A stretch of 50,694 nucleotides of DNA from Candidatus Woesebacteria bacterium GW2011_GWB1_33_22 (GTDB lineage: Bacteria > Patescibacteriota > Microgenomatia > UBA8517): the NCBI GenBank assembly GCA_000989765.1, contig LBOW01000006.1, positions 1-50,694 on the forward strand. The letters run 5' to 3'. The position numbers and the translations under genes are program-made. Shown here piece by piece: positions 12,917 through 22,703 of the stretch (position 1 is its first letter; the number at the start of each line of letters is the position of its first letter). The notes under the pieces were generated by a model. The model saw nothing but the letters and a program-made list of their open reading frames with translations. It was not told where the DNA came from and did no database searches.

Positions 12917-14656
12917 ATGCAATCAACAGACGAGGAGAAAGAGAAGCTAAAAGCAATTTGTCCTAAATGTGTAGGATACGGAAGAATTTCGACATCATCA
13001 CAAAAAGAGGAGGGGTTTTCCATTGACGTTCAGCAAACCAAGATTTACGAAAAGGTACGGGAGTTAAAAGGAGAACTAATAGGAATTTACACAGATGAGG
13101 CAAAAACTGGTACAAATCTTAATAGGCCTGGATTAACAGCATTATTAGCTCGTTGCACTAAGGGAGATATTGATTATCTAGTCGTTCAGGACACCTCAAG
13201 ACTTTCAAGAGACACTAAAGATTATTTGGGGGTTAAGGCATTGTTAAAAAAGGAGAGGGTTGAAATTGTTGCTTTATCGGGAATGCAATCTCAAGGGGAC
13301 GATCCATACTCACAGTTTCTAGATGAAGTTATAGCCGCAGTTAACGCATTACACCCTAGAGTGTCAGGTTACAAAGCACGACAAACCGCCATTGAAAAAT
13401 TTAAGAATGGTTATTATCCCTCCTGGGCACCTTTGGGTTATAAAAATGTTAAGAATGAACATCCGACAGGCCCATACGACAAACGTATAGTAGTCCCCGA
13501 TGAAGATACAAGTGCTTTTATTACTGAATCTTTTAAGATGTATGCCACTCGCAATTTTTCAATCTATGATATTCGACAATATCTTCACAAAAAGGGAGTA
13601 CGAGGTAGAAAAGGAAGACCATTACAATATTCAGTTGTTCACCATATGCTTCGCAATACTTTTTATTGGGGTTGGATGAAACATGGGGGTTTGGAGGGTG
13701 ACGGTAAACACGTTAAATTAATTGATAAACCGACATTTGATCTTGTTCAGCAAGTATTGACCGATAAAGGTGACTACAGCATTAGACGCAGAAAACATAA
13801 TTTTCTTTTAAGAGGTATTGTATTTTGTAAAGAGTGCAGTCGGAGATTTGTGGCCGAATATCACTACAATTCAAAGTACAAATCTGGAGGTGGAAAAATT
13901 GGAATGTATCACTGCTCGCAAACTGGCAAGCGTGGTAAATGCCATGCAAGAAGTCTTTCTTTGACCAATCTGGAGGATCAAGTTCAATTGGAAGTTAGTA
14001 AACTCGCATTTAAGCCAGAGTTTGTTGAGGCAGTTAATAAAAATATCGAGATTGTCTACCAGGAAGGAATTGATAAGATGAAGGACGCTAAAAAAGCAGC
14101 AGAGAACCGTAGAGATGCAATTGAGATGAACAAAGAAAGAATTCAACACGACTACACCACTAGCGGAAAGTTAAGTATTGATGAGTACCACATGTTTAAT
14201 GCCAAGTTTGATGCAGAAATGCTTAATGTTCAGAAAGAACTAGCAGACATTGAAAAGATAAAAACAATTGATGTGGCCGTAGTTAATGAAGTAATAGAGC
14301 TAACAAGGAATATTTCTCAAAGCTATGCTAAAGTCGATGTCGACCACAAAAGAGCCTATTTACACTTCTTCTTTCAAAAAATCTGGGTAAAAGATAGGAA
14401 AATCGTGGAGGTAGAATACACACCAGCTATTGAAGTTTTACAAGAGACGAATTTGGTTATATTAGGCGCCAAGTGGCTCGAGAGTCGTTCAACTAATATA
14501 ACCATGCAATTGTCACATATTTACGAGGCTTTTTCAAACTTTAGGCTTGTAGCTCAGATCAGAGAGGAAATAGAAAAAGTTAGTTCATTTCAAACTGTAA
14601 CCGCCATCAACCACCAAAATCTCGCCAGTGATGTAACTTGCATCATCAGATGCTAG
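12917..14656 (+). CDS. Large serine recombinase (integrase)
   Basis: The 579 residues show the full large serine recombinase architecture. The catalytic domain has the nucleophile in YGRISTSSQ (S25) and QDTSRLSRDTKDY. The recombinase domain follows (about 160-290), then a zinc ribbon (FCKECSRRF ... YHCSQTGKRGKCHA, about 300-350). A long coiled-coil region runs to about 460. An N-terminal CPKC before the catalytic domain is unusual. The Shine-Dalgarno AGGAAAAG precedes the ATG. The last 24 codons lie antisense to the 3' end of the SDR gene (14585-15316), so the coding sequence appears to run across the integration site. It is probably the integrase of the 8.7-14.6 kb element. Confidence 0.9.
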   Translation: MQSTDEEKEKLKAICPKCVGYGRISTSSQKEEGFSIDVQQTKIYEKVRELKGELIGIYTDEAKTGTNLNRPGLTALLARCTKGDIDYLVVQDTSRLSRDTKDYLGVKALLKKERVEIVALSGMQSQGDDPYSQFLDEVIAAVNALHPRVSGYKARQTAIEKFKNGYYPSWAPLGYKNVKNEHPTGPYDKRIVVPDEDTSAFITESFKMYATRNFSIYDIRQYLHKKGVRGRKGRPLQYSVVHHMLRNTFYWGWMKHGGLEGDGKHVKLIDKPTFDLVQQVLTDKGDYSIRRRKHNFLLRGIVFCKECSRRFVAEYHYNSKYKSGGGKIGMYHCSQTGKRGKCHARSLSLTNLEDQVQLEVSKLAFKPEFVEAVNKNIEIVYQEGIDKMKDAKKAAENRRDAIEMNKERIQHDYTTSGKLSIDEYHMFNAKFDAEMLNVQKELADIEKIKTIDVAVVNEVIELTRNISQSYAKVDVDHKRAYLHFFFQKIWVKDRKIVEVEYTPAIEVLQETNLVILGAKWLESRSTNITMQLSHIYEAFSNFRLVAQIREEIEKVSSFQTVTAINHQNLASDVTCIIRC

Positions 14657-15316
14657 AAAAACAATTGCCTTAGCTAATTCTTCAGGTTCCGCAATACGCT
14701 TTAGAGGGGTGTTTTGTTTCATCCTTTCGATCAGTTCTTCACCTGCTCCTTTGGTCATGTCTGTCATTACGTTGCTAGGAGCCACTGCATTAACCCTAAT
14801 ATTCGGAGCCAACTCTTTTGCAAATGATTTTGTAAGTGCGACAATCGCATTTTTTGCGCAGGAATATGCTAGAACATATTGTGATCCCAACAGTCCTACC
14901 GTAGAAGTTAAATTTACAATTGCTCCCTGTTTCTGCATAATGGGTGCAACTTCTTTTGTCATTAACCAAACACTTGTGAGATTTACATCAATTGTTTTTT
15001 GCCACGTTTCAATATCAGTTTTCCAATCCCCAGGTCTAACAATTTCTCCTGCATTATTAATCAGAATATCTATCTTTCCAAATTTACCCAATGTATCTTC
15101 AACTAATCTCTTTACCCCATCTTCTTTAGATATGTCTGCTTGTACCAAAAGGCAGTTTTCAGCTCTAACTTCTTTAGCAACTGACTCTGCCTCTTTTTTA
15201 TTGGTTTTGTAATTTATTACGACCTTTGCTCCCTCTTGTGCAAAAAGAATAGCCGTAGCTCGACCTATTCCTCTAGAAGAACCTGTAATAATTACAACTT
15301 TATTTTTCAATTTCAT
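14585..15316 (-). CDS. SDR-family oxidoreductase (FabG-like)
   Basis: The 243 residues form a classical short-chain dehydrogenase. The NAD(P)-binding motif is GSSRGIGRA near residue 12, followed by NNAG, a serine in NLTSTVG, YSCAK (the catalytic YxxxK) and the closing VVDGGYSLK. The family reduces 3-oxoacyl-ACP or other carbonyls; the specific substrate cannot be told. The isolated setting does not support a fatty-acid operon. An extended -10 (TGATACAAT) ends exactly six bases before the ATG, so the mRNA should be leaderless. The 3' end overlaps the recombinase gene by 72 bases and may be the attachment site. Confidence 0.9.
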   Translation of the reverse strand: MKLKNKVVIITGSSRGIGRATAILFAQEGAKVVINYKTNKKEAESVAKEVRAENCLLVQADISKEDGVKRLVEDTLGKFGKIDILINNAGEIVRPGDWKTDIETWQKTIDVNLTSVWLMTKEVAPIMQKQGAIVNLTSTVGLLGSQYVLAYSCAKNAIVALTKSFAKELAPNIRVNAVAPSNVMTDMTKGAGEELIERMKQNTPLKRIAEPEELAKAIVFLASDDASYITGEILVVDGGYSLK

Positions 15317-20416: not shown

Positions 20417-20587
20417 ATGAATAATCGACAAAGTGACACAAAAACAACAAAACAAATAAGGATCGATAGTGGTCTGCATAAGTTACTCAAAGTGAAAGCT
20501 TCTAAAGCGGAAATGACGCTTAGGGACTTTCTGGAGCAATGTTTGAATGAGTCCGACACATTTAATTTTGAAGATAAAGAAATATGA
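20417..20587 (+). CDS. Ribbon-helix-helix DNA-binding protein
   Basis: The 56 residues contain a CopG/Arc-like ribbon-helix-helix core (TKQIRIDSGLHKLLKVKASKAEMTLRDFLEQCL). One strand pairs across a dimer and two helices follow. Such proteins repress their own operon or regulate element transfer. The start has a strong purine-rich Shine-Dalgarno region (GGGAGGGG). The stop lies just before the structured leader of the next genes. The gene is too short for most ORF callers, but the motif is clear. Confidence 0.7.
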   Translation: MNNRQSDTKTTKQIRIDSGLHKLLKVKASKAEMTLRDFLEQCLNESDTFNFEDKEI

Positions 20588-20617
20588 ATAAACATCAAAA
20601 ATTACAATTAACAAAAA

Positions 20618-20655
20618 TAACCTGTTATTACGAAAGAAAACAGGTTAATAACAGG
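20618..20655 (+). repeat. Nested inverted repeats with alternative pairing
   Basis: TAACCTGTT (20618-20626) can pair with AACAGGTTA (20639-20647). The overlapping CCTGTTATTA (20621-20630) can instead pair perfectly with TAATAACAGG (20646-20655). It sits just downstream of the RHH gene and could be its operator or a regulatory hairpin. Confidence 0.5.
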
Positions 20656-20674
20656 TCGACAAATAAGCCTCTTC

Positions 20675-20703
20675 TTTCAAAACAGGCGAAATCTGAGTAT
20701 ACT
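20675..20703 (+). promoter_or_regulatory. Predicted promoter of the structured leader
   Basis: TTTCAA (20675-20680), a 17-base spacer and TATACT (20698-20703) predict a start near 20710, about 10 bases before the first stem of the structured leader. The -35 is weak (3 of 6 match). Confidence 0.4.
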
Positions 20704-20709
20704 AAGGCT

Positions 20710-20831
20710 GATAACAAATCTCAGCGACGAAGTAGCACTTTAATTGGTGCAATGTATCGAACCCAAAGAGGGGTCACTCTCGTAGGGTTCGATGCTTCGT
20801 CGCTGAGAATACTGGGGGTGATCCCTCTTTG
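20710..20831 (+). ncRNA. Candidate structured leader RNA upstream of the recombinase operon
   Basis: A 14 bp perfect stem (20719-20732 with 20795-20808) closes a junction. The junction holds a short hairpin (GCAC 20735-20738 with GTGC 20747-20750) and a 9 bp perfect stem (ATCGAACCC 20756-20764 with GGGTTCGAT 20785-20793), which is capped by AGAG/CTCT around the loop GGGTCA. The strand 20764-20777 can instead pair with 20818-20831 over 14 bp with one G-U, which would break the capped stem or form a pseudoknot. The element ends 13 bases before the Shine-Dalgarno of the next gene, so a switch-like leader controlling that gene and the recombinase is plausible. No known RNA family is recognised. 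Confidence 0.5.
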
Positions 20832-20853
20832 TTGTCAGAAGGCGGTGATATTG

Positions 20854-21096
20854 ATGAAAGAATATAAATTTATTTCGTTCAGCGACGATAAAAAAGGCAG
20901 AAAGCAAATGCAGGAAGCTATCGATAACCTATCTTCAGAAGGATGGAAAATTGATAAAACTGAAACTGTAAGTGGTGGTTGGAATGTACTTAAAGCAATA
21001 CTTCTTGGTATTTTATTTTTACCGTTAGCATTTTTTGGAAAAAGAAAACCTTTAACTAAAATCATGCTTTCTAGAACAAAGAAGGGAGAAAAATGA
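20854..21096 (+). CDS. Small DUF4177-like membrane protein
   Basis: The 80 residues begin with a short domain MKEYKFISFSDDKKGRKQMQEAIDNLSSEGWKIDKTE, similar in pattern to DUF4177 (EYK...LN.L..EGW). One membrane segment follows (AILLGILFLPLAFFG), with a basic tail. The ATG at 20854 has GGTGA 6 bases upstream. Longer upstream in-frame starts would read through the structured leader and are rejected. The stop overlaps the recombinase start by 4 bases, so the two are co-translated. The role is unknown. Confidence 0.6.
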   Translation: MKEYKFISFSDDKKGRKQMQEAIDNLSSEGWKIDKTETVSGGWNVLKAILLGILFLPLAFFGKRKPLTKIMLSRTKKGEK

Positions 21097-22670
21097 AAAA
21101 GTACATTTCCTATTATCGAAAGTCTACAGATTCTGAGGAAAAACAGATATTATCTTTATCTGACCAAAGGAGAGTAACTTTGGATTTTTGCAATCAAAGA
21201 CAATTATTTGTTCCGAATGAATATCATTTCGAAGAAAGTTGCTCTGCAAAAAAAGCTGGCAGACCCATATTTAACGAGGTTATAAAATTATTAAAAGATC
21301 GAAAAGCAGACGGGTTGATTGCCTACAAGGCAGATCGACTTACGAGAAATTATACTGACTTAGGCACAATAATGGATTTACTTGAATCTGGCATCGAAAT
21401 TTGGGCTGTGGATTATGGTCAGTATAAAAATAATTCAAACGATAAAACAATGATTGGTCTCAATACTGTTATGGCAAAGCGAAAAATTGATGATTTATCT
21501 GAGGATGTAAAAAGAAGTTTGTATGGGACAATAAAGGAAGGTAGATGGGCAGGATGGGCACCCTTAGGATATCTGAATTGTGATATTCGCGGTAGAATAA
21601 CTGGTAAAAGTTATACATTTGAGAAACAAGGTATTTTAGAAAATCTAGGAAGACCAATCACAAGAGTTGAAAAGGATCTACTAGTAGCACCTTTGATTAA
21701 AAGGATGTTTGAAATTTATGCATATCAGCCTGTTGCATTAAAACAACTTGCAGAAATTCTATACGAAGAAGGTTTAAGAAACAGAGTAGGAAACAAACTA
21801 AAAAAAGGAAGTGTTCATCAGATATTAACAAACCCATTTTATTACGGTGTTATGCGATGGAAAGGATTGATCGAAGAATCCAAACATGAACCAACTATTG
21901 ATAAGCGATTATTTGATCTAGTTCAAAAGAAATTAAGTGATAACGCACAGTTTACAATTAAACCAGATTTAGATTTTTTGTATAAAGGTTTGTTGAAATG
22001 TGGATCCTGTGGGATGAACATCACAGCAGAAGAACGAGAAAGATGTCAAAAGAACGGAAATGTTCATCATTATGTTTATTATCATTGCACTAAATCACAA
22101 GGTAATTGCGGACAAAAGCATATTGAAGAAAAAGATTTAGAGAATCAACTTTCTGAAATGTTTAAGAGCTTCTTTTTAGAGGATAAACAGGTAGAAGAAA
22201 TAAAATCAAAGCTGACAGAGCTTTATGATGAAGATAATAAGTATCAAACAATTCAAGAAAAAGCACTTAAAACTCGACTGACAAAACTTCAAAATGAAAA
22301 GAAGTCTATTTATAAACGAATGCTCATGGGCGATGTTGATGATAAGGAAACATATCTTGAAGTAAAAAACGATCTTCAGAATGAAATAAGCCAAGTTCAA
22401 GATAAACTTTTGCAGATAACAGATCATAGTCAAAACTGGTTTGATCAGTCTTCGAACCTTCTTTATTTGGCTACCCACGCACAAGAATTGTTTTTAGAGG
22501 GTACAAAAGAAGAAAAACAGATGTTGATCAGGTGTGTATCTTCGAACCTCTTTTTGAAAGATAAAAAGGTCGAATTTAGCTTCAATAAACCATTTGAGAT
22601 ACTCTCTCAGACACCTAAATTGAGTTCCTTGCTCCTCGGGCACGATTCGAACGTGCGACCTTATTCTTAA
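21093..22670 (+). CDS. Large serine recombinase next to tRNA-Asn
   Basis: The 525 residues carry a catalytic domain with YYRKSTDSEEKQ (nucleophile S11) and KADRLTRNYTDL, followed by the recombinase domain (about 150-280). A zinc ribbon with LKCGSCGMNI ... YYHCTKSQGNCG lies around 300-345. A coiled coil follows (about 370-450). The Shine-Dalgarno is strong (AAGGGAGAAAAATG). The last 13 codons (..LLGHDSNVRPYS) are read from the antisense strand of the tRNA-Asn at 22632-22703. This is the signature of an integrase whose 3' end abuts a tRNA attachment site. It is distinct from the recombinase at 12917-14656. Confidence 0.9.
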   Translation: MKKYISYYRKSTDSEEKQILSLSDQRRVTLDFCNQRQLFVPNEYHFEESCSAKKAGRPIFNEVIKLLKDRKADGLIAYKADRLTRNYTDLGTIMDLLESGIEIWAVDYGQYKNNSNDKTMIGLNTVMAKRKIDDLSEDVKRSLYGTIKEGRWAGWAPLGYLNCDIRGRITGKSYTFEKQGILENLGRPITRVEKDLLVAPLIKRMFEIYAYQPVALKQLAEILYEEGLRNRVGNKLKKGSVHQILTNPFYYGVMRWKGLIEESKHEPTIDKRLFDLVQKKLSDNAQFTIKPDLDFLYKGLLKCGSCGMNITAEERERCQKNGNVHHYVYYHCTKSQGNCGQKHIEEKDLENQLSEMFKSFFLEDKQVEEIKSKLTELYDEDNKYQTIQEKALKTRLTKLQNEKKSIYKRMLMGDVDDKETYLEVKNDLQNEISQVQDKLLQITDHSQNWFDQSSNLLYLATHAQELFLEGTKEEKQMLIRCVSSNLFLKDKKVEFSFNKPFEILSQTPKLSSLLLGHDSNVRPYS

Positions 22671-22703
22671 CAGGAATCTGCTCTGCCGTTGAGCTACCGA
22701 GGA
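22632..22703 (-). tRNA. Second tRNA-Asn (anticodon GTT), at a recombinase gene's end
   Basis: The 72-base - strand cloverleaf has a perfect acceptor stem TCCTCGG/CCGAGGA and the D arm GCTC..GAGC. The anticodon loop is CTGTTAA (GTT), and the T arm is GCACG TTCGAAT CGTGC. The discriminator base is G, and CCA is not encoded. The first pair of the anticodon stem is a G-A mismatch (GATTC/GAATA), which may be tolerated. The recombinase coding sequence overlaps its 3' half by 39 bases. It differs widely from tRNA-Asn at 1488-1559, so the two are not recent duplicates. Confidence 0.9.

Follow-up and report, generated by a model that had tools for sequence, protein, structure and literature searches.

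A candidate family of cis-regulatory leader RNAs in Patescibacteria phages and serine-recombinase elements

The leader at positions 20705-20853 of contig LBOW01000006.1 from Candidatus Woesebacteria bacterium GW2011_GWB1_33_22 (the window is the whole 50,694-nt stretch analysed) carries a member of an RNA family with conserved helices, a loop-tail pseudoknot, and a defined genomic context. The reading preferred here, on balance, is that 20708-20838 is one member of a new family of cis-regulatory leader RNAs, which occurs in temperate phages and in integrative elements with serine recombinases of the Patescibacteria, or candidate phyla radiation, and masks the start of cargo genes. The RNA is presumably transcribed, and it would control the cargo genes by acting at translation. 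The family is new, and its kind, the structured regulatory leader, is already known. Very little is known about regulatory RNAs in Patescibacteria or in the phages that infect them. The present family is defined and searchable, with strong covariation and a consistent promoter-RNA-membrane protein layout, and is linked directly to phage packaging genes and tRNA-targeting integrases. It offers a handle on how the phages of these episymbionts control cell-surface cargo genes.

The window RNA lies on the forward strand and is closed by stem P1 (20719-20732 with 20795-20808), in which the 14 bp of the original prediction are verified as Watson-Crick pairs (14/14). The predicted 9-bp stem P3 (20756-20764 with 20785-20793) is likewise perfect (9/9). 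The junction hairpin P2 (20735-20739 with 20746-20750), first described with 4 bp, has these and one further G-U pair. P2 is present in the MFE fold, and so is a possible outer stem P0 of 10 bp with one G-U (20708-20717 with 20829-20838), which competes with the end of the pseudoknot. The L3 loop (20764-20781, CAAAGAGGGGTCACTCTC) is the 5' strand of the pseudoknot and forms 18 contiguous pairs, including 3 G-U, with the 3' strand at 20814-20831. The alternative pairing proposed earlier is therefore real but was put too short, at 14 bp with one G-U. The 3' strand consists of a Shine-Dalgarno-like GGGGGT followed by GATCCCTCTTTG, and can alternatively form its own 5-bp hairpin (20814-20818 with 20823-20827), followed by U-rich RNA. 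Folding of 20705-20860 gives -73.3 kcal/mol (z = -8.4), and none of 200 dinucleotide shuffles is as good. The loop-tail duplex reaches -31.9 kcal/mol compared to -13.0 +- 2.7 in shuffles, of which 0/1000 are as strong. Ten bases of the P1 5' strand (TCAGCGACGA, 20721-20730) are repeated at 20879-20888, codons 9-12 of the first gene, and the P1 3' strand could thus pair there too.

Fifteen full copies comprise the window and 14 relatives (12 Patescibacteria genomes and 2 IMG/VR viral contigs). P1 and P3 are common to the full copies, and the pseudoknot is found in nearly all relatives. A blastn search of Patescibacteria genomes identifies G103 (Ca. Chisholmbacteria, MHCJ01000006.1) and G209 (Ca. 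Pacebacteria UBA1364, DBRQ01000002.1). The third relative, L051 (Ca. Collierbacteria, MFAQ01000002.1), comes from a pattern scan of ~85,000 species genomes, the nine matches of which are three RNAs (Chisholmbacteria, Pacebacteria, and Collierbacteria) and six chance hits. A covariance model built from the first four copies recovers nine more full copies in other Patescibacteria families, and two IMG/VR pattern scans yield the two viral contigs, to which the final model gives 91 and 85 bits. Among other viral-contig patterns, the first two return nothing or one false match in coding sequence, and a further one returns 12 contigs, none of them backed by the covariance model. The covariance-model matches G347/L037, G121, and G123 were dropped as chance matches or for want of the pseudoknot, and G451/L105 as a degenerate remnant. 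The window RNA has no blastn match in phage and plasmid records. The RNA is rare and scattered, being carried by just 3 of the 374 genomes from the class to which the window belongs, and in family f84 it occurs in 5 of 27 genomes. Genome G685 holds three copies. One of them, G685c (L118 5532-5641 in RNA orientation), is a sixteenth copy outside the 15 full ones. In this copy the loop, the 3' strands, and the tail remain but the 5' strands of both P1 and P3 are gone, and it is either a truncated relic or a rearranged form.

The original prediction that the RNA belongs to no known family agrees with Rfam searches at lax thresholds. None of the 4227 models of Rfam 15 matches over the window RNA at the gathering cut-off, none matches over the RNA in the loci of 13 relatives at E up to 5, and the two viral contigs are likewise without a match up to an E of 1. 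The model of the C4 antisense RNA (RF01695) finds no match in the window, nor in its relatives at lax thresholds. No catalogued family corresponds to this RNA in Rfam 15 or in the literature searched, which covers the field in part.

A comparison of homologues for compensatory changes had been proposed as a check, and homologues that retain every pairing with such changes do exist. When four sequences are aligned by MAFFT without structural information, 95.5% of the cells are base-paired and compensatory changes appear in 14 of 39 pairs, as against 0/500 shuffles and 0-3 covarying pairs in slid controls. The 13-row model alignment gives 92.7% paired cells and covariation in 26 of 39 pairs, a result matched by 0/500 shuffles, and its slid controls have 8-12 covarying pairs. 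This alignment is biased towards P1-P3 by construction; the pseudoknot is absent from the structure of the search model, and its pairing is thus not built into the alignment. Across 13 homologues, P1 has 93.5% of cells paired with 10 of 13 pairs covarying, and P3 has all cells paired (117/117) with 7 of 9 pairs covarying. P2 is variable in sequence and length, and all four of its aligned pairs covary with 72.5% of cells pairing. The 13-bp pseudoknot core has 91.7% of cells paired in the 13-row alignment, in which the core of L111 is misaligned by one base and pairs perfectly when read by hand. Four further pseudoknot pairs (YYYC with GRRG) are formed in 94% of cells. The loop-tail complementarity extends to 16-18 bp in nearly every copy, and the duplex beats shuffles in all copies except the degenerate G398. 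At one pseudoknot position, 11 of 13 copies have G-U and two have G-C, which suits an RNA. As is expected of riboswitches, the operon has in its 5' leader a conserved, aptamer-like fold whose helices covary. The loop-tail pairing is conserved together with P1 and P3, which makes the pseudoknot part of the fold and not merely a rival to it. The earlier notion of two mutually exclusive folds is corrected in this respect; even so, the full 17-18 bp pairing and an intact P3 appear geometrically incompatible.

Directly upstream of the window RNA, a consensus scan finds a promoter-like site TTCAAA-16-TATACT (20676-20703), which would start the RNA ~6-10 nt before P1. The promoter that had been called plausible is thus present, but taken alone this site is no commoner than in shuffles, and it is the relatives that speak for it. 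A TATAAT-like -10 box lies directly upstream in 14 of the 15 full copies (the window and 13 of 14 relatives), G398 being the copy without one. Just 5' of the promoter-like site, the repeats AACCTGTTATT / AACAGGTTAATAACAGGT occur at 20620-20657, and they are possibly operator sites for the ribbon-helix-helix protein encoded at 20417-20587.

Downstream, the leader is followed by a predicted small membrane protein of 80 aa (20854-21096) and a large serine recombinase (integrase, phrog_95; 21093-22670), both on the forward strand and overlapping by 4 nt, as stated in the original description of a leader that heads a membrane protein and coupled integrase operon. The N-terminus of the small protein has a weak similarity to DUF4177, below the Pfam cut-off, and its gene shares the reading frame of a 170-aa ORF at 20584-21096. 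The 3' end of the recombinase gene overlaps a tRNA-Asn gene on the reverse strand (22631-22703), where the element has probably integrated. In G103 and G209, too, the end of the recombinase gene lies on a tRNA gene. The two tRNA-Asn copies were rejected as a simple att pair since the genes differ and the 3' end of the right tRNA has no second copy in the window. No left end of the element could be located in the window. Elsewhere in the window (12917-14656 and 14585-15316), a second large serine recombinase runs into the 3' end of a gene for a short-chain dehydrogenase, which points to a further integrated element.

The window and L051 share the gene order ribbon-helix-helix protein, RNA, small gene, and large serine recombinase. 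Their recombinases are 55% identical, and their small genes are unrelated. A large serine recombinase is located near most RNA copies, and a terminase large-subunit gene lies directly 5' of the RNA in G617, G739, L121, and L122. The RNA therefore sits in elements with integrase or phage genes, as a leader of phages or integrative elements should. The upstream regions of 29 other recombinase loci contain no RNA, and hence it is not a fixed companion of this recombinase family.

The RNA and the first gene are co-oriented throughout the copies. The first real downstream gene encodes a predicted membrane protein at 13 of 15 loci, compared to 54 of 190 baseline ORFs (28%; P 4e-6), the baseline being ORFs of the RNA loci. 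Cargo examples are DUF4352 proteins, a membrane-anchored Mrr-type nuclease, and, as the second gene in G209, a membrane SNase. The cargo genes have no common family, and thus no obvious metabolic signal explains the set.

The 3' strand of the pseudoknot has the consensus GRRGGUNGUCCCUUUU, in which a conserved Shine-Dalgarno-like purine run (GRRGGU) is followed by a U-run. In 7 of 16 copies (P about 3e-5), the U-run is succeeded by an ATG no more than a few bases away, and one more copy has GTG. This ATG opens a full gene in G472, G685a, G685b, and G446, and a short ORF in G739, L121, and L122. The short ORF of L122 (47 aa) begins right behind the pseudoknot and terminates on the first codon of the gene for the membrane protein, and that of G739 (46 aa) stops shortly ahead of the GTG with which the next gene opens. 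Both layouts are what translational coupling would predict. In copies with an ATG after the pseudoknot, this codon and the purine run are ~12-13 nt apart, a long spacing for a Shine-Dalgarno sequence. The remaining copies, including the window, have a gene start site of their own further downstream. In the window, the Shine-Dalgarno-like AGAAGGCGGTG of the first gene, as read from the sequence, lies at 20837-20847, outside the pseudoknot.

In the proposed mechanism, the promoter directly before the RNA would start the transcript, in which P1, P2, and P3 would form a three-way junction, and the P3 loop is complementary to the stretch right after P1. The loop-tail pairing would then mask, in cis, the region where translation of a cargo operon starts; the first gene of such an operon usually encodes a membrane or exported protein. 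Translation would start when the pairing opens, and the signal for opening or closing may be a metabolite, a protein, or a second RNA. For cargo genes at a greater distance, the switch may be relayed by a leader ORF or an alternative hairpin. By geometry, a 17-18 bp helix drawn from a 20-nt loop should remain incomplete as long as P3 is intact. Hence, either a shorter core would form within the intact fold, or P3 would fray or exchange.

Gene control was modelled in four copies (window, G103, G209, and L051), with the locked pseudoknot represented by holding its strands unpaired. Locking lowers the predicted access to the ribosome-binding site in L051 (0/300 shuffles), changes it marginally in G209, leaves it unchanged in the window, and causes no significant change in G103. 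The alternative hairpin of tail and spacer is stronger than in shuffles in three of the four copies (0.023 in G103; 0/300 in G209 and L051), the window being the exception (0.32). These folding models point to a possible switch in the family, but neither effect appears in the window copy. The control that had been predicted for the gene at 20854 gains no support from the model, in which locking leaves the predicted ribosome-binding site unchanged.

A more specific form of the proposed switch can be put forward tentatively, as a possibility that falls clearly short of the general reading. The RNAs would be a switch class of Patescibacteria elements in which the loop zips up 17-18 bp with the start region, and an exchange of P3, driven by a signal of the host or the phage, gates surface-protein cargo, possibly for superinfection exclusion.

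Riboswitches of the cobalamin, SAM-II, and preQ1 types combine a junction with a loop that pairs with the expression platform, and their ribosome-binding site is masked by a pseudoknot. The present RNA resembles them in its aptamer-like junction and in the pairing of its loop with a putative expression platform, but differs in topology and conserved bases, and it has neither an Rfam match nor a common metabolic regulon. The c4 antisense RNA of phages P1/P7 (RF01695) is a structured phage-leader RNA whose sequence complements a target further along its own transcript. The Patescibacteria RNA shares with c4 and P4 CI a loop complementary to a downstream target of the same transcript. In contrast to both, it is without a covariance-model match, and its target abuts P1 and contains the start region of membrane cargo. 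To our knowledge, it has no sequence relation to IsrK. IsrK of the Salmonella prophage Gifsy-1 is a trans-acting, terminated sRNA that activates translation, and the CI RNA of satellite phage P4 has its complementary target further down the transcript that it is part of (PMC4825925). In parallel with what is observed or proposed for the present RNA, IsrK is a prophage RNA located just 3' of its own promoter that pairs with the leader of the following ORF, its system hides an RBS in alternative structures, and an upstream ORF is translationally coupled to the next gene; however, no three-way junction with a loop-tail pseudoknot is described for it (PMC4825925). The STAXI motif, a tandem pseudoknot repeat, also occurs near mobile-DNA genes such as integrases (PMC2864571), whereas the Patescibacteria RNA is present as a single copy per locus and has no Rfam match.

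Among the other explanations, a transcription attenuator is rather unlikely. The tail hairpin and its U-run would serve as a terminator and the loop-tail pairing as an antiterminator, gating read-through into the cargo. What makes attenuation conceivable is the tail, which in most copies gives by itself a short hairpin, mostly of 5 bp, and then 2-6 U, and a scan finds three terminator-like sites at 20814-20828 where 0.4 are expected. However, the stems are short, at -2.4 to -10.5 kcal/mol, and many U-runs are interrupted. The U-run has a further explanation in its complementarity to the A-run in L3, and an ATG directly after it suggests translation.

It is unlikely that the leader is a trans-acting antisense RNA of the C4, P4 CI, or IsrK type, whose P1-P3 domain, freed by processing or termination, would pair with the start regions of other transcripts for immunity or dosage control. 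The phage- and satellite-like setting fits such a role, as does a loop complementary to a downstream target of the same transcript, known from P4 CI and IsrK (PMC4825925). In addition, the core GGGGCUAC/GUAGUCCC is common to the copies, and cross-pairing is thus possible in the three-copy genome G685. However, the target always lies a few nt after P1, as cis pairing predicts, and the downstream genes are membrane cargo rather than replication or antirepressor genes. Moreover, no second target was found in the window, and the lax search with RF01695 was empty.

An element acting as DNA, whether double- or single-stranded, with inverted repeats as attachment, packaging, or regulator-binding sites, is very improbable. 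Interleaved inverted repeats would covary in DNA too, the mobile elements bear recombinases, and four copies directly follow a terminase gene. Nevertheless, the orientation to the downstream gene is constant, with a -10-like box upstream and in many copies an ATG after, the tRNA site of the recombinase is 1.8 kb away, and the G-U pair kept at one pseudoknot position argues for RNA. A protein-coding origin of the hairpins, within a conserved frame of the 170-aa ORF, is rejected. Although this frame is open across the RNA in both the window and L051, whose translations are similar, it is broken in G103 by two in-frame TGA codons, and the sequence changes affect paired bases and are mutually compensatory.

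A second conserved stretch, GCTTTACGAAGC ... TTGCA ... TCATCAATC, is located ~60-130 nt after the RNA in L113, L121, L122, and L109, and seems to be common to the copies that follow a terminase gene. Behind the G103 copy, L052 12633-16908 encodes the membrane-anchored Mrr nuclease, an HTH protein, a GHKL ATPase, and a TOP6A/Spo11-Toprim protein beside a type I restriction locus, and looks like a candidate defence module.
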